Assembly (NCBI RefSeq): GCF_002075885.1
Contig: NZ_MDET01000012.1
Span: forward strand, 62,001 to 126,000
Source: Manganibacter manganicus
GTDB taxonomy: Bacteria > Pseudomonadota > Alphaproteobacteria > Rhizobiales > Rhizobiaceae
Direction of reading: 5' to 3'
DNA: 64,000 nucleotides
A program made the translations under genes and the position numbers. Shown here in pieces: positions 970 to 12,331 of the stretch. Below the pieces are notes generated by a model that had not been told where the DNA came from, did no database searches, and worked only from the letters and a program-made list of their open reading frames with translations. Each line of letters opens with the position of its first letter. Position 1 is the first letter of the stretch.

Positions 970-2157
970 ATGTTGACGATCGGCAGACGCGGCACAAGCA
1001 GCGCGACCGGTAAAGATGCTGATGACCATTTGCCTCGAGTCGCTGCCAGCGAGGACGGGGACGCCCTGCGCTGTACCTTTTCCGGAAACTGGACGACACG
1101 CACCATCGCCGGGGTCGATGGCGAGATGCGCAAGATCGAGCAGGCGGGCTTTCGCGCCCTGACCCTCGATCTTTCGGGCATCGGGAAGATCGATACGGCC
1201 GGCGCCTGGCTGATCGAGCGGCTGATCGACGTGGCCGAGAAGAAGGGCGCGGCAGTCGATACCCAGGGGGCAAGCGAAGTGACCTCCATCCTGCTTGGCG
1301 CGGTGGGCGATGCCGTCCGGCGTAGCCAGGAGTCGGCATCGGAGCGGCGGCCCAATGTCATCATTCGCTTTCTCGAAGCGATCGGCCGGCGTGTCTATGA
1401 CATGCGTGACGATTTTCTGGCCGCCATGAACATATTGGGCGCCACCATTCGCGGCGCCCAGATGAAACTCGGCCGCGGCCATGGCGTCAATCCGGCGGCG
1501 ATCTTCAACCAGATCGATCGCATGGGCGTGGGCGCGATTCCGGTGGTGGTGCTGATGGCCGGCATTGTCGGCGCCATCGTGGCGCAGCAGGGCGCCTACC
1601 AGCTTCGCTATTTCGGCGCCGACATCTTCGTGGTCGATCTGGTCGGCGTGCTGGTGCTGCGCGAGCTTGGCGTGCTTTTGACGGCGATCATGATCGCCGG
1701 CCGGTCCGGCAGCGCGATCACCGCCGAGATCGGCTCGATGAAAATGCGCGAAGAGGTCGACGCGCTCAAGGTCATCGGCCTCAATCCGATCGGCGTTCTG
1801 GTGTTTCCACGCCTTGTCGCGCTGGCCATCGGGCTGCCATGCCTGACCATTTTCGCCAATTTCGCGGCGCTCGGCGGCGGCATGATGGCCGCCTGGCTTT
1901 ATTCGGACATTCCGCCCGCCGCCTTCATCGACCGGCTGCGCGTGGCGATCGACCTGAGCACCATCTTCGCCGGGCTGATCAAGGCGCCGTTCATGGCCAT
2001 GATCATCGGCATTATCGCCTCGGTCGAAGGCATGAAGGTCGGCGGCAGCGCTGAATCGCTCGGCCAGCACGTCACCGCCTCGGTGGTGAAATCGATATTC
2101 GTGGTCATCGTCCTCGATGGCCTGTTCGCCATATTCTACGCCACGATCAATTTCTGA
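970..2157 (+). CDS. mlaE: MlaE-type lipid ABC transporter permease with N-terminal STAS domain
   Basis: This 395-residue protein combines an N-terminal STAS-like domain (about residues 30-120, with LDLSGIGKIDTAGAW) and a C-terminal MlaE/YrbE permease domain (about 150-395) with several hydrophobic helices and the conserved region around ELGVLLTAIMIAGRSGSAI. MlaE permeases sit in the inner membrane and, with MlaF and an MCE protein, move phospholipids between inner and outer membrane. In E. coli the STAS protein MlaB is separate; here it is fused to the permease. First gene of a four-gene operon: MlaF follows after 3 bp. Confidence 0.93.
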   Translation: MLTIGRRGTSSATGKDADDHLPRVAASEDGDALRCTFSGNWTTRTIAGVDGEMRKIEQAGFRALTLDLSGIGKIDTAGAWLIERLIDVAEKKGAAVDTQGASEVTSILLGAVGDAVRRSQESASERRPNVIIRFLEAIGRRVYDMRDDFLAAMNILGATIRGAQMKLGRGHGVNPAAIFNQIDRMGVGAIPVVVLMAGIVGAIVAQQGAYQLRYFGADIFVVDLVGVLVLRELGVLLTAIMIAGRSGSAITAEIGSMKMREEVDALKVIGLNPIGVLVFPRLVALAIGLPCLTIFANFAALGGGMMAAWLYSDIPPAAFIDRLRVAIDLSTIFAGLIKAPFMAMIIGIIASVEGMKVGGSAESLGQHVTASVVKSIFVVIVLDGLFAIFYATINF

Positions 2158-2160
2158 CCC

Positions 2161-2970
2161 ATGACGATGACCGAAACAGCCACCTATAGCGAGAGCGACG
2201 AGATCGTGCTGTCGGCGCACGACATCACCGTCGCGTTCGGCGACAAGGTCATCCTCGATCATTTGTCGCTCGAAATCAGGCGAGGCGAAATTCTCGGCTT
2301 CGTCGGGGCTTCGGGCGCCGGCAAATCAGTTCTGCTGCGCACCATTCTCGGGCTCAACCGCAAGCAATCCGGCATGATCAGGCTTTTCGGTGTCGATGTC
2401 GAGGAGACGAGCGACATTGAGCGCCTGAAGATCGACATGCGGCTCGGCGTCCTGTTCCAGCATGGCGCGCTGTTTTCGGCGCTCACCGTTCTGGAGAATG
2501 TGCAGGTGCCGATGCGCGAATATCTCGACCTGCCGAGAAAGCTGATGGATGAACTGGCGCTGCTCAAGATCGAACTTGTCGGCCTGCCGCCCGATGCCGC
2601 GCAGAAGTTCCCGTCGGAACTGTCGGGCGGCATGATCAAGCGTGCCGCTCTGGCTAGGGCGCTGGCGCTTGACCCCGATATCGTCTTTCTCGATGAGCCG
2701 ACCTCCGGCCTCGATCCGATCAGCGCCGCCGAATTCGACGAACTGGTCGTCAAGCTGCGCGATACCATGGATCTGACCGTTTACATGGTCACGCATGATC
2801 TCGATTCGCTGTTCACCGCCTGCGACCGCGTCGCGGTGCTCGGCAACAAGAAAGTGCTTGTCGAAGGCACCATCGAGGACATGCTGAAAAGCGAGGAACC
2901 GTGGGTAAAGTCATATTTCCGCGGAAAGCGCGCCCGTCAACTTGATCTTGCCTCCCGCGCACAGCCATAA
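2161..2970 (+). CDS. mlaF: MlaF-type ABC transporter ATPase
   Basis: A 269-residue ABC ATPase that powers the MlaE permease. Visible motifs are the Walker A GASGAGKS (residues 49-56), the Q-loop region LFQHGALFSALTV, the signature LSGGMIKRAALARAL (about 153-167), the Walker B segment IVFLDEPTSGLDP (about 176-188) and the H-loop VTHDLDS. The LFQxGALFxALTV pattern is typical of Mla/retrograde lipid transport ATPases. It begins 3 bp after mlaE and is followed 8 bp later by the MCE gene, so translation is probably coupled. Confidence 0.95.
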   Translation: MTMTETATYSESDEIVLSAHDITVAFGDKVILDHLSLEIRRGEILGFVGASGAGKSVLLRTILGLNRKQSGMIRLFGVDVEETSDIERLKIDMRLGVLFQHGALFSALTVLENVQVPMREYLDLPRKLMDELALLKIELVGLPPDAAQKFPSELSGGMIKRAALARALALDPDIVFLDEPTSGLDPISAAEFDELVVKLRDTMDLTVYMVTHDLDSLFTACDRVAVLGNKKVLVEGTIEDMLKSEEPWVKSYFRGKRARQLDLASRAQP

Positions 2971-2978
2971 GTAGAGCA

Positions 2979-4352
2979 ATGGAAACCAGAGCCAACTACG
3001 TCATTGTCGGCATTTTCACGCTGGTTGCGATCCTGGCGGCATTCGCTTTCGTCTATTGGTCGTCCGCCATCGGCGACCGCGGCGAGACGGTGCTTTTGCG
3101 CGTGCGTATTCCGGGCTCCGCGTCCGGCCTGGGGCGCGGCAGTTTCGTCTTGTTCAACGGCGTCAAGGTTGGTGACGTGCGCCGCGTCTATATCGATGTC
3201 GACAACCCCACGGTCGCCATCGCCGACACCGAGGTGGACCGGCTGACCCCGATCACCAAATCGACAAAGGCGTTTATCGGCCTGGCGGGCCTGACCGGGC
3301 AGGCGAATATCGAGCTCAAGGGCGCAAACCCGCATGAGCCGAAACTGCTCGACGAGGCGGAGATCAACGGGACTGTCGCTGAAATTACAGCCAATCCGTC
3401 GGCTGTCACCAATTTGCTGCAAACCGCGCAGGACATTTTTACCCGCGCCGACAAGGTTTTGTCCCAGCTTGAAGGTTTCACCAACGATGTGCGCGGACCG
3501 CTGACCCAAACCGTGCAGAATGTCCAGAAATTCTCCGACGCGCTGGCCAGCAACTCGGATGGCATAGATAAATTCTTGAGCAGTGTCAGCGCTTTGGCCG
3601 TCGAACTTCAAGGCGTTTCCGGCAAGCTCGACGGTACGCTCAAGGCGGCCGAGGGGCTGCTTAATGCCGTGGACAAGGACAGGGTGAAAGAGATCGTCGC
3701 CAATATCGATACGTTCACCGGAAACCTCAAGACGACGAGCGACCAGTTCGACGACGTCATCAAGAACGTCAACACGGCGGTCGGTTCGATCAACGGCTTT
3801 GCCGCCAAGACCCAAGGCACGCTCGACAAGGTCAACAGCGTGCTCGACGGTATCGACCCCAAGGATGTGCGTGAAGCGATCGCCAATATCCAGGAAGCCA
3901 GCGAGAACGCCAACAAGGCGGCGGCGGACGTTGCCGTGGTGACGCATAAATTCGCCGACCGCGCCGACGACATCGACCAGACCATCCATGACGCACAGCA
4001 GCTTGCAGCGCGGTTGAACAATGCTTCGGTGCGGGTGGACGGCATTTTGCTGAAGGTGGACAAGCTGCTCGGCTCCGACCAGGCAGACGGGCTGGTTGCC
4101 GATGCCAGGGCGACGCTGAAGTCGTTCAAACAGGTGGCCGACACGCTGAATTCGAAATTGGGCGTCATCACCGACAATCTGGCGCGCTTCTCCGGTCAGG
4201 GCTTGCAGAATGTCGAGGCGTTGGTGAAAGACAGCCGCCGTTCGATCGATCGTATCGAGCAGGCCGTCAGTGATTTCCAGCGCAATCCACAGCGCATCTT
4301 GTCCGGTGGCGCCGGCGAGGTTCGCCAGTATGACGGGAGGGCACGGCGTTGA
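2979..4352 (+). CDS. mlaD: MCE/MlaD-family lipid transport protein
   Basis: 457 residues: an N-terminal membrane anchor (about residues 7-28), one MCE domain (about 35-120, containing GSASGLGRGSFVLFNGVKVG), then a roughly 320-residue predominantly helical tail rich in heptad-like Leu/Val/Ala positions. MCE proteins form periplasmic hexamers that carry lipid. E. coli MlaD is only about 183 residues, so this is the long-tailed form, whose helical tail may form an extended conduit or reach towards the outer membrane (inference). Its stop overlaps the TTG start of the lipoprotein gene. Confidence 0.9.
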   Translation: METRANYVIVGIFTLVAILAAFAFVYWSSAIGDRGETVLLRVRIPGSASGLGRGSFVLFNGVKVGDVRRVYIDVDNPTVAIADTEVDRLTPITKSTKAFIGLAGLTGQANIELKGANPHEPKLLDEAEINGTVAEITANPSAVTNLLQTAQDIFTRADKVLSQLEGFTNDVRGPLTQTVQNVQKFSDALASNSDGIDKFLSSVSALAVELQGVSGKLDGTLKAAEGLLNAVDKDRVKEIVANIDTFTGNLKTTSDQFDDVIKNVNTAVGSINGFAAKTQGTLDKVNSVLDGIDPKDVREAIANIQEASENANKAAADVAVVTHKFADRADDIDQTIHDAQQLAARLNNASVRVDGILLKVDKLLGSDQADGLVADARATLKSFKQVADTLNSKLGVITDNLARFSGQGLQNVEALVKDSRRSIDRIEQAVSDFQRNPQRILSGGAGEVRQYDGRARR

Positions 4353-5017
4353 GTTTGCTTCCTGAGACAAGTGATGACGGCGGCGATGCCGGGCGGGACC
4401 GGCCGGCCATCCGCAGGGCGCTGCTGCGTCGCGCGTCGGCGCCGCTGGCCCTGACGCTGGCCGGTTTCGTCATGGCCGGCTGTGCCGCGCTTGGCGCCGG
4501 CCCGCCGCCGCTTGATACGTTCGAGCTTTCAGCGCCTTCCGTAACCGCGCAGCATCACAGCCGGCGCCAGATTCTGATCGCCGAACCTGCCGCGCTCAAG
4601 GCGCTTGACGGCCAGAACATCGTCATCAAGCCGTCGCCGGCCTCGATCCAGTATCTGAAGGGCGCGCAATGGGCGGATCGGCTGCCGCTGATCGTGCAGG
4701 CGCGATTGGCTGAAACATTCCAGGGCGCCGGCAGTTTCGCCGGTGTCGGCAAGCCGGGCGAAGGGCTGGCCATCGACTATCAGGTCATTACCGAAATTCG
4801 TGCCTTCGACATTCGTGTCGATGGCGGCGAGCACGCGCAGGTCGAACTGTTCGTGCGCCTGCTCAACGACCGCAATGGCGAGGTGCGCGCGGCAAGGACA
4901 TTCAGCGCCCGCGCGCCGGTCAGGGGGGGCGGAAATCAGGCCTATGTGGCGGCGTTGGATCAGGCTTTCGGCACCGTTTCCACCGAGATCGTGCGCTGGA
5001 CCGATTCGCAGATCTGA
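4349..5017 (+). CDS. ABC-type transport auxiliary lipoprotein (PqiC/ABC_trans_aux family)
   Basis: A 222-residue lipoprotein starting at TTG and overlapping the MCE stop by 4 bp. A hydrophobic signal ends in the lipobox VMAGC (Cys at residue 45), preceded by an unusually long charged N-terminus, so the true start may lie downstream. The mature part resembles the auxiliary lipoprotein family (PqiC-like) encoded beside MCE operons. The probable role is an outer-membrane-anchored partner of the MCE tube. It is the last gene of the operon. Confidence 0.82.
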   Translation: MSLLPETSDDGGDAGRDRPAIRRALLRRASAPLALTLAGFVMAGCAALGAGPPPLDTFELSAPSVTAQHHSRRQILIAEPAALKALDGQNIVIKPSPASIQYLKGAQWADRLPLIVQARLAETFQGAGSFAGVGKPGEGLAIDYQVITEIRAFDIRVDGGEHAQVELFVRLLNDRNGEVRAARTFSARAPVRGGGNQAYVAALDQAFGTVSTEIVRWTDSQI

Positions 5018-5460: not shown

Positions 5461-8400
5461 TTACTGGAGCCGGCCGCTGGCGTGAGCCAGCATCGTGTAG
5501 ACCTTGCCGGTATCGGAGGTGAGGTAGGTCTGCCCCATGATGTTGTCGCGATCGTTGCGCGAAACATCTTTCAAGAGCTTCTCGAAATCGCCGCAATAGC
5601 GATCGACCGCGGAGCGGAACTCCGGTTCCGCCTGATATTTGCGGCGGATTTCATCGAAGGTCTGCTGGCCCTTGAGCGTGTAGAGGCGGCGTGTGAACAC
5701 GTCGCGCTCGCCGCGCCGGTAGCGGTTCCACAACTCGATCGAAACGTCGTGGTCGATGGCCCTGGCAATGTCCACGGACAGCGAGTTGAGCGATTCCACG
5801 ACATGCAGCGGTGAGCGCGGGGCAGGGGCCGGGCGTTGCGCCTCGGCTGGCGCCGGCTTGGCAGCGCCGCTGTCACGCGAGGCGCCGCTGAGCAGATCGC
5901 GCACCCAACCGCCCTGCGAGCCCCTTGTTTCGGGGGTGCGCGTTTCCGGCTCGCGCTGGCGAACCGCCGTGCCGCCGCCCTGCGGAGCGCGGGAAGCGGC
6001 TTGCGGCTGCGGGGCTGGCCGCGAGGGTTCGGCGGGCCGGGTTGCCGCCGCCGGCGGCGTGCCGCGCGGCTCCTGTACATCCACGGTGCGGCCGGATTTG
6101 GCGACGATGTCGGACAGTTCCTTGAGCGCGTTGATCTGCTCGGAAACGGCGCGGCGAATGGCCGTGGTCGATTCCTTGGCTTCTTCCGGCATCTCGATGA
6201 CGCCCTTCTTGAGCTCGGCGCGGGTAAGATCCAGCTCGCTCTTGATGGAACCGGCGGTGCGCCGCATCTCGTCGGTGGCGTCGGCGAACCGTTTGGTGGC
6301 GGATTCGACAAGCTCGCTGATGGTTTCGCGGATCTTGTCGGCCGAAGCCATGGTCTTGCCTTCGGCGCTCTGGAGGGTCTGGCCGACCAGATTTTCGAAC
6401 GACTGCATGACCTTTTCCAGTTCCTCCGACTTCTTGACCAGGCCGACCGCCAGGTCGTCCAGCGAAGATTGCCGCTCCAGCGTGTGCTCCAGATTGCTCT
6501 GGGCCGAGCCGAGCAACTCGGACGCGCTGGCAAGCAGGCGGCTGTGCTCATCGAACTTGGTGGCGATGGAGGCCACTTCGCGCAGCGTCGTGGACGACAG
6601 TTCGGTGAGCCGTGTCGTGTTGGAATCGACCAGGCGTGCCGAGCTGGCGAAGGTCTGCGCCGCCTTTTCGGTGGTTGCCGCGAAGCTCTGCGTGCTGCCT
6701 GAAAGCTGGCTTTCGACCTGGCCGAGATTGGCGGATGCCGTCTCGATCAGCGCGTTCAACTGCGCGCTCGACTGGCCCATCCGGTCGATCAGGCCGCTGA
6801 CGCCCTCGGCCAGTGTATTGCGCGCATTCTCGACCGAAGACAGTGTCTCGGCGGTGCGGCTGGCGATGGCCTCGGCCAGCGCCGCGTTTTCCAGACGCAG
6901 CTTCTCGGTGGCGCGCTCGGTCGCTTCCTCCATGCTGCGCTGCAACTCGCCGCCGCCCTGGGCGAAGCGCTCGACGAGAGGACGTGCCGTCTCATCCAGA
7001 ATCTTCGAGATCTCGGTGGAGCGGGCAGCGAGCATGGAGTTCAGCTCGCGGGTGTTGTCGCCGATGGCCCTGGCCGCGTCATTGGTGCTCTGGCCGATAT
7101 GCTGGCCGACCGCGGTGAACGTCTCGGCGATGACATTGGCGCGTTCGACAAGCTGGTTCTCGGCCTGCGAGACCTGCTGGCCGAGCGCCTCGCGCATCGT
7201 CTCGGCGGAGCGGGCCAGCCGGTTCTCGGCCTCCGTGACATGCTCGCCGACGCGGGCAGCCGTTGTCGCGGCACTGGCGGCCAGCCGCTCGTCGGCACCC
7301 GAAAGCGCCTGCTCGATCTCGCGGGCGTGGGCGGCAAGTTCCTCGCCGGTCTGGCGTACATGCTGCGCCACGCGCTGCTCGGTGTCGGTGAAGGCGCCGA
7401 CGATCTGGTCGGCATGGCCGCTGATGGCGGAGGTGCTGTCGGCGATGCGCGAAACCATGCGCTTGTCGGCCGCGTCGAAGACATGGCCGATCTCGGCCAC
7501 GCGGGCGGTTAGTGCCTCGGAACCCTCGGCGATGCGCGACTTCAACTGGCTGTCGGCCGCATCGAAGATCTGGCCGAGCTCGCCGGCGCGCGCCGCCAAT
7601 GCTTGCGCCGATTCGCCGATACGCGAGGACAGCCGCTGATCGGCATCCTCGAAATTGCGCAAAATATCGCCGGCGCGTGCGGCCAGCGACTGCGCCGTCT
7701 CGACCGCGCGGGCAACCAGCTTCTGATCGGCGGCGTCGAAGGTGCCGGCGATGGACTGCGCCTTGCTGTCCAGCTGTGCCGCGGTCTCCTCGGCGCGTGC
7801 CAGCAGCAGGCTCGACGTGTCCTGGGCGCGGGCGGCAAGCCGCTGATCCGCATCCTCGAAGGCGCGGGCAATGTCTTCGGCACGCGCCAGCAGGGCGGTG
7901 GAGGTCTGTTCGGCGCGCTCGGCGATCTTGCGGTCGGCATCGCTGAAGGCGGTGCCGGCCTGCTCATGCAGCGCGGCGGTGACTTCCATGACCTTTTCGC
8001 GCAGGGCGCCGGCGACGAACAGGGCGCTCTTTTCCAGCACGCCACGGATGTTGTCTATGCCGGAGGCAAGCGCGCGTTCGATCGCGCCCGTGCGCTCCTC
8101 GATCACGCCGCCCTGGCGCTCGAAGGCGTCCTCGATGCGTGCGACGTCGCCGGCCAGCCGATCGGAGATCAGCGTGCTGCGCGCCGCAATCTGGTCGATA
8201 TGGCCGGTCACGGCGGTATCGACCTGCCTGCGGGCGTCCACCAGCTTGTCGAGATCCTGCTCGAGCGCCACGGTCAGCATGCTGCGGCCCTCCGCCAGCT
8301 TGCCGACATGGGCAGTGATGATTTCGTCGATCTCGCCACGGCTTGCGACGAGCTTCTGCATGTCGGCTTCCAGCGCCCGGCGCAGAATGTCGCGTCCCTC

Positions 8401-11400
8401 GGCCAGTTTTTCGACCTGGCCGGCAACCAGCCCGTCGATGCCGGCGCGGCTTTCGGCCAGCTTGGCAAGATCGGCCTGCAATGCCTCGGAAAGCGTCGCA
8501 CGGTCGTCGGAGAGGCGATCCATATGGCTCTGGACCAGCGCACGGATGTTTTCCAGGTCGCCCTCGATGGCGCGCGAGAATTCTGAATGATTGCCGGTAA
8601 GATTGCGCGCCTGTTCGCTAATCGCATCCTTGATCGTGTTGAGGTCTGTCTCCAGCGCGCGATGCAGGATATCGCGGCCTTCGGCCAGTTTCTCGACCTG
8701 ATCGGAGACGAGCCCGTCAATGCTGGAGCGGCTGTCGGCGAGCTTGGAAAGATCTTCCTCCAGCGCGCCTGAAAGCGTGGCGCGATCTTGCACCAGCCGA
8801 GCCATGTGATCGTCGATGAGGCTGTTGACCGTGCGCAGGTCTTCCTCCAGCGCCCGCGAAAGCTGATTGCGGTGATCGCCCAGCTTGTGCGACTGCTCGT
8901 CCATGGCCTCGCGGATCGTGTTGAGATCGCTTTCGAGCGCGCGGCGCAGGATATCGCGGCCCTCGGCCAGCTTCTCGACCTGGCCGGCGACCAGCCCGTC
9001 GATGCTGGAACGGCTCTCGGCCAGCTTGGCGAGATCGTCTTCCAGCGCCCGCGAAAGAGTGGAGCGGTCGGACGCCAGACGTTCCATATGGTCGTGAACC
9101 AGCGTGTTGACGCTTTGCAGGTCGCGCTCCAGCGCGGCGGCGAATTCGCCGCGGTCGTCGCCAAGCTGGCGCGACTGCTCGGACAGCGTCTCGCGAATGG
9201 TGACAAGGTCGCTTTCCAGCGCCCGGCGCAGGATATCGCGGCCCTCGGCCAGTTTTTCGACCTGACCGGCGACCAGCCCGTCAATGCCGGAGCGGCTTTC
9301 GGCCAGCTTGGCCAGATCGGATTCAAGCGTCCTGGAAAGCAGGCTGCGTTCCTCGGCGAGCCGGCCGGAATGGTCCTCGACCATTTTGTGGATATTGGCC
9401 AGATCGGATTCCAGAGCCCGGCCAAGTTCGCCGCGATCTTCGGTCATTTTGACCGAATGGCTCTCCATCAGGTTCTTGATCCTGTTGGCGTCGGCCTCGA
9501 ATGCCCTGGCCAGCACGTCGCGGCCCTGCGCCAGCTTCTCGACCTGGGCGGCGACCAGCCCGTCAATCCCGGCGCGGCCTTCTTCCAGCTTGCCCAGATC
9601 GGCTTCCAGCGCGCGCGAAAGAATATTGCGGCCTTCGGCCAGCTTTCCGACATGACCGGCAACCATTTCATCAATGGTTCCACGCGCTTCGACCAGTTTT
9701 TGCGAGTCTTCGCTAAGGGCCTTGGAAAGCCGGTTGCGGCCTTCGTCCAACCTTTCCAGATGTGCGCCGAGAGAGGCGTCGATGGCCGCGCGGGATTCGT
9801 TGACCTTGCGCAAATCTTCCTCAAGCGCGCGCGCAATGAGATCGCGACCTTCGGCCAGCTTGTGCACCTGACCGGCCAGAGCGTCGTCGATGGCCGTGCG
9901 GCTGTCGGCGAATTTGGCGAGGTCGGACTGCATGGCGACCGCCATGCGGTCACTGCTTTCGGCCAGCTTGCGGCTGTGGTGCTCGACGGCTTCCTCGATA
10001 CCGGTGCGCGCATCGGCGAGCCGCTGGATATCGGCTTCGAAGCTTTGCGACACGACATGGCGCGCCGCTTCCATGCGGCTGGCGAAATCGTTGGAATGGC
10101 TTTCGAGCATCGCGGAAGTCGAGGTGACGATGCCAGCCATATCCTCGTTGATCTGGGCCTTGCCCTGATCGATCATGGCGGCAAGCGTGTCCTTGCCCTC
10201 CGTAAAGGTGGTGGCGATCTCACGGGCGCGCTCGACCAGCGTCTCGTTGATCTGACGCGCGCGTGCTTCCAGCGCCGCGTTGAGCTTCTGCGTGCCCGTA
10301 TCGAGCGCCTCGGCGCGGGTTTCGAACTCGCTGATCAGCGCCTGGCCACGCTCGGCCAGCGTGCGCTCGATATTGTTGAGGCTTTCCTCGAATTCGGTGT
10401 TCAGATTGCGAGCGGCGCCGCCGAGCAGCGAAACCATGCCGGCGGTGCGGTCGTCGAGCAGTTCCGTCAGCGAACGGGTCAGGCCGTCCGTGCTGTCGGT
10501 CAGCTTGGCAATGCGCGTATCGAGCAGGCTGGCGAAGGCCTCGCCCGAGGTCGAGAGCCGGTCGGTGATGGTGTCGAGCCGGGTTTCCACCGTGTCGAAG
10601 ATCGACAGCGAGCTGTCGTTGATGCGGTCGATGAGCGTGTCGCCGGAGTTGGTGATGGTCATCGACAGGTTGGTCGAAGCGCCGAGTATGCTTTCGCGAA
10701 TGCGTTCGCCGGCGGAGTCGATTTCGTCTTTCAAGGTCTCGTGGGCGCCGGCAATCGAAGCGCGCACGCGCTCGGCATGGCCGACGACGGCTTCACGCTC
10801 GCTGCCCAATCCATCCACGAGCGAGCGGATGCGGGATTCGTTTTCCGAATAGGAGCGTTCGATCTGGTTGACTTCACTATGGACCAGCGTTTCCAGTTCG
10901 ACGGCGCGCGCCAGCGTGCGCTCGATGCCTTCACCCATTGCCGCCACTTCGCGGCGCACGGCCTGGCCGATCGTCATCACGCGGTCCTGCGCGAGATTTT
11001 CAGGCGCGGCGAGACGGAAGGCGACTTCCGTCATCGATTGTGCGGCCAGCCGCATATCCTGCGCACGCCGCACCATGGCCGCGAAAGCCCAGAACAGCAC
11101 CACGGGAACGATGGCCGCGACGGCAAGACCGATCAGTTCGGGGCGGGCAAGAAGCTGGTCGAGCGAGCGAATCTGCCAGATGTCGGAGCCGAACAGAAGG
11201 TTTGCCAAGCCCGCGGCACCGGCAATCCACGCCAGCGAAACAAACGCGACGACCCAATATACCGCATTGGACCCGCGGCGATTGAGCCCGCGTATCAGCG
11301 AGCGGTAATCTTTCTGGCTGTCGTCATTGGCGGGCGACAAGGCGGCCGGCGTGCTGCCGGCGGCGGGTTCGACAGGACGCAGCGTCTCCTTCGGTTCCTC

Positions 11401-11667
11401 GGCCTTCGGCTGGTTGGCGGCGAACAGCTTGGTCGGCGAGGGCGTCTCGTCGACCTCGGAATCCGCCACGGGCTTTTCCTTCTCGGCGCGGCTGGCACGG
11501 GCAAGTTCGTCGGCAGCTTCTGAAATCTGCGCCTCGAGGTCTTCCATGGAAGCTGCGATATCGAGGTCGCCATCCAGATTGTTGGCGAAATCGAAATCGA
11601 GTGCTTCTTCGAGTTCCTTGGCTACTTCGTTGTCGAGATTCTTCTTGGCCGTTGTTTTCTTCGCCAT
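5461..11667 (-). CDS. gpr: Giant membrane-anchored coiled-coil protein, growth pole ring (GPR)-like
   Basis: A 2,068-residue protein. Residues 1-130 are acidic and low in complexity, two transmembrane helices lie at about 135-158 and 178-199, and almost everything to about residue 1,850 is helical, Ala/Glu/Leu-rich repeat. A Pro-rich linker and a small folded C-terminal domain (about 1,970-2,068, rich in aromatics and Arg) close it. Units of 36 and 29 residues, mostly ending ALExDL, are arranged in four tandem 94-residue blocks (36+29+29) at about residues 690-1,066. Size, paired N-terminal helices and apolipoprotein-like helical repeats match the Agrobacterium growth pole ring protein, which forms a ring at the growing pole and is needed for polar growth. 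Homologues are often labelled 'kinesin-like'; no motor motif is visible. Monocistronic, with its own terminator. Confidence 0.85.
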   Translation of the reverse strand: MAKKTTAKKNLDNEVAKELEEALDFDFANNLDGDLDIAASMEDLEAQISEAADELARASRAEKEKPVADSEVDETPSPTKLFAANQPKAEEPKETLRPVEPAAGSTPAALSPANDDSQKDYRSLIRGLNRRGSNAVYWVVAFVSLAWIAGAAGLANLLFGSDIWQIRSLDQLLARPELIGLAVAAIVPVVLFWAFAAMVRRAQDMRLAAQSMTEVAFRLAAPENLAQDRVMTIGQAVRREVAAMGEGIERTLARAVELETLVHSEVNQIERSYSENESRIRSLVDGLGSEREAVVGHAERVRASIAGAHETLKDEIDSAGERIRESILGASTNLSMTITNSGDTLIDRINDSSLSIFDTVETRLDTITDRLSTSGEAFASLLDTRIAKLTDSTDGLTRSLTELLDDRTAGMVSLLGGAARNLNTEFEESLNNIERTLAERGQALISEFETRAEALDTGTQKLNAALEARARQINETLVERAREIATTFTEGKDTLAAMIDQGKAQINEDMAGIVTSTSAMLESHSNDFASRMEAARHVVSQSFEADIQRLADARTGIEEAVEHHSRKLAESSDRMAVAMQSDLAKFADSRTAIDDALAGQVHKLAEGRDLIARALEEDLRKVNESRAAIDASLGAHLERLDEGRNRLSKALSEDSQKLVEARGTIDEMVAGHVGKLAEGRNILSRALEADLGKLEEGRAGIDGLVAAQVEKLAQGRDVLARAFEADANRIKNLMESHSVKMTEDRGELGRALESDLANIHKMVEDHSGRLAEERSLLSRTLESDLAKLAESRSGIDGLVAGQVEKLAEGRDILRRALESDLVTIRETLSEQSRQLGDDRGEFAAALERDLQSVNTLVHDHMERLASDRSTLSRALEDDLAKLAESRSSIDGLVAGQVEKLAEGRDILRRALESDLNTIREAMDEQSHKLGDHRNQLSRALEEDLRTVNSLIDDHMARLVQDRATLSGALEEDLSKLADSRSSIDGLVSDQVEKLAEGRDILHRALETDLNTIKDAISEQARNLTGNHSEFSRAIEGDLENIRALVQSHMDRLSDDRATLSEALQADLAKLAESRAGIDGLVAGQVEKLAEGRDILRRALEADMQKLVASRGEIDEIITAHVGKLAEGRSMLTVALEQDLDKLVDARRQVDTAVTGHIDQIAARSTLISDRLAGDVARIEDAFERQGGVIEERTGAIERALASGIDNIRGVLEKSALFVAGALREKVMEVTAALHEQAGTAFSDADRKIAERAEQTSTALLARAEDIARAFEDADQRLAARAQDTSSLLLARAEETAAQLDSKAQSIAGTFDAADQKLVARAVETAQSLAARAGDILRNFEDADQRLSSRIGESAQALAARAGELGQIFDAADSQLKSRIAEGSEALTARVAEIGHVFDAADKRMVSRIADSTSAISGHADQIVGAFTDTEQRVAQHVRQTGEELAAHAREIEQALSGADERLAASAATTAARVGEHVTEAENRLARSAETMREALGQQVSQAENQLVERANVIAETFTAVGQHIGQSTNDAARAIGDNTRELNSMLAARSTEISKILDETARPLVERFAQGGGELQRSMEEATERATEKLRLENAALAEAIASRTAETLSSVENARNTLAEGVSGLIDRMGQSSAQLNALIETASANLGQVESQLSGSTQSFAATTEKAAQTFASSARLVDSNTTRLTELSSTTLREVASIATKFDEHSRLLASASELLGSAQSNLEHTLERQSSLDDLAVGLVKKSEELEKVMQSFENLVGQTLQSAEGKTMASADKIRETISELVESATKRFADATDEMRRTAGSIKSELDLTRAELKKGVIEMPEEAKESTTAIRRAVSEQINALKELSDIVAKSGRTVDVQEPRGTPPAAATRPAEPSRPAPQPQAASRAPQGGGTAVRQREPETRTPETRGSQGGWVRDLLSGASRDSGAAKPAPAEAQRPAPAPRSPLHVVESLNSLSVDIARAIDHDVSIELWNRYRRGERDVFTRRLYTLKGQQTFDEIRRKYQAEPEFRSAVDRYCGDFEKLLKDVSRNDRDNIMGQTYLTSDTGKVYTMLAHASGRLQ
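8473..9600 (-). repeat. Four tandem 282-bp coding repeats
   Basis: The motif at the start of each block (minus-strand codons for AKLAESR..IDGLV) recurs at plus-strand anchor positions 8455, 8737, 9019, 9301 and 9583, exactly 282 bp (94 codons) apart. Each block has one 36-residue and two 29-residue helical units, a difference of one heptad. Blocks are similar but not identical, so they are old duplications or kept alike by gene conversion. Confidence 0.85.
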
Positions 11668-11965: not shown

Positions 11966-12331
11966 ATGCAGGAATCCGGCGTGGCGTTTTCGCGGCCTGG
12001 CGGCGAAACCTGTGGATCGGCACCGCTTCGGCCGTTCGATCTGGAACACCTTTCGCGCCAGACCATGGGCGACCGCGACCTGGAGCGCGAAGTGTTGGCT
12101 TTGTTCGCGCAGCAAGTGGCGGATGTGCGCGACCGCATTGCCGATGCCGATACGAAAGAGCGGATTTCGCTGGCTCACGGCCTGAAGGGATCGGCGCGCG
12201 GCGTTGGCGCCTTCGCGGTCGCCGATTGCGCCGCCGAAATCGAGAAAAACCCGCAAGACGGACCTGCCATCGGCCGTCTCGCCACTTTGATTGACGAAGT
12301 GCGCGATTTCATCGCCGCCATCAATCGCTGA
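11966..12331 (+). CDS. Orphan HPt (histidine phosphotransfer) domain protein
   Basis: 121 residues; the C-terminal two thirds form an HPt four-helix domain with the signature LAHGLKGSARGVGA, in which His71 would be the phosphorylated residue. HPt proteins pass phosphoryl groups between hybrid kinases and response regulators. No kinase or receiver gene is nearby, so partners are unknown. The start ATG is preceded by GGAG at a good distance. Divergent from the giant coiled-coil gene with 298 bp between starts. Confidence 0.85.
   Translation: MQESGVAFSRPGGETCGSAPLRPFDLEHLSRQTMGDRDLEREVLALFAQQVADVRDRIADADTKERISLAHGLKGSARGVGAFAVADCAAEIEKNPQDGPAIGRLATLIDEVRDFIAAINR

Follow-up and report, generated by a model that had tools for sequence, protein, structure and literature searches.

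Helical phase as the probable shared constraint on a giant, repeat-bearing GPR/RgsE-type protein of Manganibacter manganicus

Growth pole ring protein (GPR) is a known ring-forming part of the spatial organisation of unipolar growth in rhizobia and their relatives, with polar rings published for Agrobacterium GPR. A stretch of 64,000 nucleotides from Manganibacter manganicus (assembly GCF_002075885.1, contig NZ_MDET01000012.1, positions 62,001 to 126,000, hereafter the window) carries a giant gene, gpr, in which an earlier note described 94-residue tandem blocks and proposed that their period sets the length or packing of a ring at the growing pole. The question raised by this locus is what the family actually keeps in such a protein. 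We find a regular 94-residue period in this protein that is largely lineage-specific, and comparison with its homologues indicates that the shared family constraint is helical phase and not the period of the blocks.

The open reading frame at 5461-11667 on the minus strand encodes a protein of 2068 amino acids, with hydrophobic segments beginning at residues 139 and 178 in a hydropathy scan and a helix-like, proline-poor region of 1644 residues (207-1850) that contains three prolines, no cysteine and no tryptophan. The two transmembrane helices and roughly 1,600 helical residues announced in the note were thus recovered. The principal parts are:

5461..11667, minus strand: gpr/rgsE orthologue (almost certain, see below), 2068 amino acids; open reading frame, C-terminal domain matched in 149 of 151 family genomes, PF01442 at 92.9 bits (cut-off 90)
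11197..11253, minus strand: predicted transmembrane segment 1, residues ~139-157; hydropathy scan
11080..11136, minus strand: predicted transmembrane segment 2, residues ~178-196; hydropathy scan; all 162 family proteins can be aligned over residues 120-235
6118..11049, minus strand: long helical region, residues 207-1850, hydrophobic period ~3.63-3.64; proline count and period scan
5824..6084, minus strand: proline-rich low-complexity linker, residues ~1862-1948; sequence
5464..5820, minus strand: conserved C-terminal domain, residues 1950-2068, predicted helical; 35-sequence alignment, AlphaFold2, class-wide search

The 94-residue period is real in this protein. Five anchor motifs with identical context lie at residues 695, 789, 883, 977 and 1071, and lags of 94 and 29 were the strongest in self-similarity over residues 241-1750 (each 5.4 standard deviations above the median of lags 3-419), and residues 601-1200 are 47% identical at lag 94. 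Tandem Repeats Finder reported a 282-base-pair period twice, in overlapping rows with 79% and with 75% matches that jointly cover 8632-9442. A unit-head matrix, which was derived from this same protein and is therefore descriptive for it, located 18 heads, whereas 20 shuffles gave 0.3 on average; the heads are spaced by 36, 36, 36, 36, 29, 29, 36, 29, 29, 36, 29, 29, 36, 29, 29, 36 and 36. The resulting parse is 36 three times, (36+29+29) four times, then 36 and 36. This agrees with the four 36+29+29 blocks first described; the flanking 36-residue units, which had been placed on the N-terminal side, are present there and also on the C-terminal side of the blocks. Units of 36 and 29 residues can be read as 18+18 and 18+11, that is, as 18-mers and 11-mers. 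The repeat units, all by unit-head parse except the last, are:

9631..9954, minus strand: three 36-residue units, residues 572-679
9349..9630, minus strand: 94-residue block 1 (36+29+29), residues 680-773
9067..9348, minus strand: 94-residue block 2, residues 774-867, with 73% identity to block 3
8785..9066, minus strand: 94-residue block 3, residues 868-961
8503..8784, minus strand: 94-residue block 4, residues 962-1055
8287..8502, minus strand: two more 36-residue units, residues 1056-1127
7168..8178, minus strand: mostly 29-residue units by eye, residues ~1164-1500 (approximate bounds); lag 29 is joint top, the head matrix gives no parse

Homologues were collected in two samples. A set of 80 loci gave 68 usable proteins (nine were cut by a contig end, one was shorter than 1500 amino acids and two lacked a recognised start), and 100 of 149 family matches were analysed. 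Left out of the latter were very short frames, the window together with the other genome of its genus and, for genera represented more than once, most of the second members; three further proteins were also left unused. The 169 homologues were reduced to 162 unique proteins by removal of seven duplicates. Within these, 59 proteins form what we call the Mesorhizobium set (Mesorhizobium, Aminobacter, Pseudaminobacter, Aquamicrobium, Oryzicola and a few records that carry no genus name) and 103 are other family proteins. Missed unit heads (spacings of 58, 72 and 145) were filled before unit orders and run lengths were counted.

The 94-residue block is largely specific to Mesorhizobium and its near relatives. 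The longest 36-29-29 tandem run in the Mesorhizobium set was 0 in two proteins, 1 in two, 2 in 20, 3 in 29, 4 in five and 5 in one, so that 55 of the 59 carry at least two blocks in tandem, whereas among the other family proteins the run was 0 in 95, 1 in seven and 2 in a single protein. The strongest lag of at least 8 residues across the 169 homologues was most often 29 (69 proteins), followed by 22 (33), 36 (21) and 11 (12); 94 and 33 were each strongest in six, 40 and 18 in five, 66 and 62 in three and 44 in two, with 51, 55, 76 and 88 occurring once each. A ring ruler, in which the 94-residue period itself fixes packing at the pole, has in its favour that the period is real in this protein. 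It is very improbable given how few other family proteins carry the tandem run, its absence even from two members of the Mesorhizobium set, and the different periods elsewhere; as a general ring ruler the period is ruled out by this lineage restriction and by the other periods. A fixed total length was likewise considered, as 2068 amino acids here are similar to 2089 and 2115 in print, and was ruled out by the range of 1206-3387 amino acids (counted from the first methionine) in the 100 sampled family proteins. The striking 94-residue period is accordingly a lineage-specific detail and not the principle, and a species-specific role of the blocks in setting length is conceivable.

Block number does vary between species, the note having expected variation between strains. 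In a tree of 59 tips made from the non-repeat ends, by a quick method and with 20 of 56 inner branches open, run length requires at least 18 changes, and the 59 proteins show 34 distinct unit orders. Recent homogenisation of the blocks was considered and found no support: with other proteins limited to below 0.6 k-mer similarity, the nearest block belonged to a different, not-too-near species for 154 of 185 blocks and to the same protein for 31. These data bear on a neutral account, in which unequal recombination alters the blocks, only some helix is needed and both length and block number are irrelevant. The many run-length changes, the variety of unit orders and the wide range of family lengths all fit such turnover, which we regard as possible and rather less than probable; that the blocks are not simply homogenised does not fit it, and neither do the sizes of the length changes described next.

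Length changes in the helix kept the helical phase. Comparison of 134 close pairs among the 162 unique proteins gave 174 distinct insertions or deletions (indels) in the helix. Of the 116 that were below 60 residues, 115 were sums of 7s and 11s, compared to 17 of 224 indels outside the helix; by chance 49% of lengths from 1 to 59 would be such sums if lengths were evenly spread. Of the 174 helix indels, one was six residues or shorter, compared to 174 of the 224 indels elsewhere in the protein. This main test omits the last 320 residues, with the distal end of the helix only partly covered, and its indels were de-duplicated. The result held with 43 nearest pairs under four gap settings, in which 29-30 of 29-30 helix indels were sums of 7 and 11 compared to 0-2 of 62-71 outside, and in which small indels (six residues or fewer) numbered zero in the helix and 55-65 outside. 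An alignment-free comparison used the 83 of 162 proteins (55 from the Mesorhizobium set, 28 other) in which both a transmembrane anchor and a C-terminal anchor were located. Here length differences below 60 residues in 124 pairs were 7/11 sums in 46 of 49 cases in the helix and in 16 of 113 cases outside it; the phase resultant was 0.81 at 3.60-3.62 residues per turn in the helix compared to 0.12-0.13 outside. Recombination between units explains part of this pattern. The near-absence of small helix indels points to selection against phase shifts, and together with the retained proline and distal segment described below it stands against purely neutral turnover; these points argue for a constraint on phase, not on length itself.

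The hydrophobic pattern of the helix agrees with this. All 168 proteins measured, one of the 169 being too short, had their best hydrophobic period over the helix at 3.61-3.667 (median 3.638); none lay near the 3.5 of a canonical heptad coiled coil. In this protein the period was 3.637, with a power of 33 compared to a maximum of 15.6 in 100 shuffles. When 3082 windows of 150 residues from the 162 proteins were scanned, power exceeded 10 in 1492, of which 1412 lay at 3.58-3.70 and 15 at 3.45-3.55. The period reported for a straight helix is about 3.63 (PMC4786415). The hydrophobic stripe is narrow across 186 blocks, its central 40 degrees being isoleucine, leucine, valine, methionine or phenylalanine in 99% of cases; of the two edges, one sector is 47% acidic, mostly aspartate, and the other is two thirds isoleucine, leucine, valine or methionine and one third arginine.

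Measured against a 3.63 helix, the median drift of the stripe per 1000 residues was -75 degrees for the 59 proteins of the Mesorhizobium set and +322 degrees for the 103 other family proteins; for 20 proteins of relatives beyond the order it was -1305 degrees, on a scale where a heptad pattern gives about -3700 and a hendecad pattern about +990 (sizes computed, signs derived by us). The 20 outside-order proteins were hand-picked from the matches listed in a class-wide search with a C-terminal-domain profile, which matched 103 of 289 genomes, four of these in the window's own order. These relatives are mostly shorter (648-2099 residues) and mostly built on a 25-residue unit: the top lag was 25 or a multiple of it in 13 of 20 (25/7 = 3.571), and the period was 3.565-3.597 in 18 and 3.622-3.624 in two. 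Two hydrophobic segments were found in 14 of them, one in four and none in two. This distribution suggests that the domain and the putative rod are older than the polar-growing order, transfer between lineages being an alternative.

Variation in length is confined to one part of the helix. Each of the 83 anchored proteins had exactly three helix prolines at distances from the anchors that were fixed to within one residue, namely 15 residues after the transmembrane anchor, then 288 (63 proteins) or 289 (20 proteins) and finally 24 residues before the C-terminal anchor. Nearly all length change in these proteins falls between the first two fixed prolines, a stretch that ranges from 738 to 2202 residues and comprises 1340 proline-free residues here. 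The second proline, P1563, is proline in 148 of the 157 proteins that cover its column in the alignment of 162, and the column of P1827 is proline in 136 of 162; only four of the 20 outside-order proteins aligned at the proline columns at all. Within the family, the sequences thus appear to combine a fixed base, a variable middle, a conserved proline as a possible hinge, and a distal part of nearly constant length. The two features concerned are:

6979..6981, minus strand: conserved proline P1563 (context TARPLVER), possible hinge
6118..6981, minus strand: distal helix from P1563 to the C-terminal anchor, 288 residues in 63 and 289 in 20 of 83 proteins; anchor distances

Taken together, the explanation that we consider probable overall is a membrane-anchored, nearly untwisted cytoplasmic rod that would scaffold the growth pole. 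That the helix forms a straight, phase-locked rod is the likely part of this proposal; that a scaffold of tunable length is its working principle is a possibility that falls a little short of probable. The helix would assemble in the cytoplasm as a low-order, nearly untwisted coiled coil, about 245 nm long at full extension (0.15 nm per residue), and one of its faces might hold polar-growth proteins. Each 94-residue block would lengthen such a rod by about 14 nm without turning the binding face, and relatives would lengthen or shorten it by whole units with the face staying aligned. It is as if the rod can be lengthened but not twisted, its water-repelling face kept in line. In the literature relatives of this protein form a polar ring, and they are described as cytoplasmic, membrane-anchored and located at the growth pole (PMC7327166). 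A more elaborate version is an evolving molecular ruler in which each species would set rod length, and with it reach at the growing pole, by phase-neutral units (7, 11, 18, 29, 36 and 94 residues) between the fixed base and the proline hinge, the binding face staying straight. Its twist would also have been retuned in evolution, starting from the left-handed 3.57 of the mostly 25-residue units seen beyond the order and arriving at 3.61-3.667 in the family; in this full form we find the ruler rather doubtful.

Several points weigh against the phase-locked rod. Unequal recombination between units would alone yield unit-sized indels, any folded region rejects small indels to some degree, and the indels counted in the test are not independent. 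A one-residue, phase-shifting difference near residue 1731 occurs in 20 of the 83 anchored proteins and the period in far-end windows of this protein falls to 3.53-3.59, and consequently the rule fits the repeat-bearing middle and not strictly the far end. An SMC protein of the same genome, run as a control, was noisy, its nine windows with power above 6 including four at 3.45-3.55 and four at 3.58-3.70. The AlphaFold2 model of residues 680-1127, from a tool that predicts monomers only, was a helix with two breaks and of low confidence (pLDDT, the predicted local distance difference test score, 66; pTM, the predicted template modelling score, 0.23). Finally, PF01442 was matched above its cut-off and a lipid role has been proposed in print (PMC8262873).

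This last point belongs to an apolipoprotein-like reading, in which the helix would lie flat on or around lipid with the 11-residue element as a lipid-facing stripe. Besides the PF01442 match, 11-residue-type periods are present in many family members, the published proposal is that of a lipid-organising centre (PMC8262873), and a MlaE/MlaD-type operon adjoins the gene. This operon (970-5017, plus strand) comprises genes for a MlaE permease, an ABC ATPase, MlaD and an auxiliary lipoprotein by Pfam match and lies convergently downstream of gpr; its last gene, encoding the auxiliary lipoprotein, has this position in 63 of 100 family loci, with about 3.5 kilobases downstream covered. On the other side, a gene for a single-domain Hpt protein (11966-12331, plus strand) is divergent from gpr; 83 of 100 family loci share this arrangement, which indicates that conserved gene order is general at this locus. 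A functional link to the Mla-type cluster by synteny was therefore rejected, and the convergent orientation of that neighbour also tells against the lipid reading. So does the composition of the helix, which is acidic (net charge -94 here, -4.4 to -6.3 per 100 residues in the 83 anchored proteins). Of 1627 18-residue windows, none exceeded the upper threshold of a lipid-binding score and 57 exceeded the lower. The narrow stripe with its aspartate and arginine edges, the net charge and the low lipid score favour a putative oligomeric straight coiled coil over a helix lying on lipid, and we judge the lipid reading unlikely. As a separate observation, the Mla-type gene set resembles the Mpc system (PMC12436622).

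The GPR-like character suggested in the earlier note was supported. Besides the family genomes listed above, 60 of the 61 genomes of the genus and 236 of the 249 of the order matched the C-terminal 119 residues, with one match per genome in nearly all. The transmembrane region aligns in all 162 unique family proteins, this one among them; by the hydropathy scan 132 of these have two segments, 28 have one and two have none. Seven full-length homologues from family genomes align with this protein at 28-31%. Because of the C-terminal domain, the transmembrane region, the architecture and the near-universal occurrence, the gene is almost certainly the orthologue of GPR of Agrobacterium and RgsE of Sinorhizobium, judged from sequence. 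The C-terminal domain would then be the domain of GPR, an assignment resting on orthology and not on a named GPR sequence. In AlphaFold2 this domain is small and helical (mean pLDDT 73); Foldseek returned no PDB match at E 0.001 or better, and sequence comparison gave no strong match in PDB (best E 0.027).

Six sampled family genomes of 1.1-1.5 Mb all retain a protein with the C-terminal domain, in open frames of 1345-1980 amino acids, and three small, incomplete genomes had no match in the order search. In seven of the 80 loci the contig ended 126-262 bases before the C-terminal match, inside the proline-rich linker, which suggests that this stretch is hard to assemble. Two antisense open frames run through gpr (8788-11523, plus strand, 911 amino acids; 5756-7639, plus strand, 627 amino acids) and are probably shadows of its codon use and repeats.

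The family is already known, and the phase rule, the fixed proline and the variation in unit order do not seem to be in print, in a search that left subscription journals and preprints mostly outside. A literature search combining GPR with helical repeat, coiled coil or AlphaFold gave no title on its periodicity among the matches listed. Under the phase rule, what was a vague apolipoprotein-like helix becomes the subject of a specific prediction, that of a straight rod with a fixed hinge and adjustable length.

ZorA-type MotA/TolQ proteins, which have a long cytoplasmic tail, resemble this protein in combining a membrane anchor with a long helical tail, and a weak match to NCBIfam ZorA_1 was found (E 0.019, 13.3 bits). 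This score is, however, far under the cut-off of 190, and a MotA/ExbB domain was absent among the eight Pfam matches up to E 1. The closest known systems were compared by published description. GPR of Agrobacterium (Atu1348) is described with two N-terminal transmembrane segments, a continuous helix of about 1700 residues and similarity to PF01442, and this protein shares these features as well as low-complexity regions on the C-terminal side (PMC8262873). The published account differs in describing apolipoprotein-like domains, and its main text contains no words beginning with repeat, heptad or periodic (PMC8262873). RgsE of Sinorhizobium meliloti (SMc00190, 2089 amino acids) is likewise described as a large membrane-anchored cytoplasmic protein with apolipoprotein domains, which sits at the growth pole, contacts RgsA, RgsS and TolQ and has homologues in all Rhizobiales families (PMC7327166). 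It is termed repeat-containing there, in a main text with no words beginning with heptad, periodic, tandem or hendecad (PMC7327166). With hendecad and mixed 7/11 coiled coils the protein shares 11/3 and 18/5 periods near the straight-helix value of 3.63 (PMC4786415, PMC9369452). It differs from these coiled coils in that the stripe runs over a very long helix and that the repeat unit differs by lineage while the phase appears to be kept.

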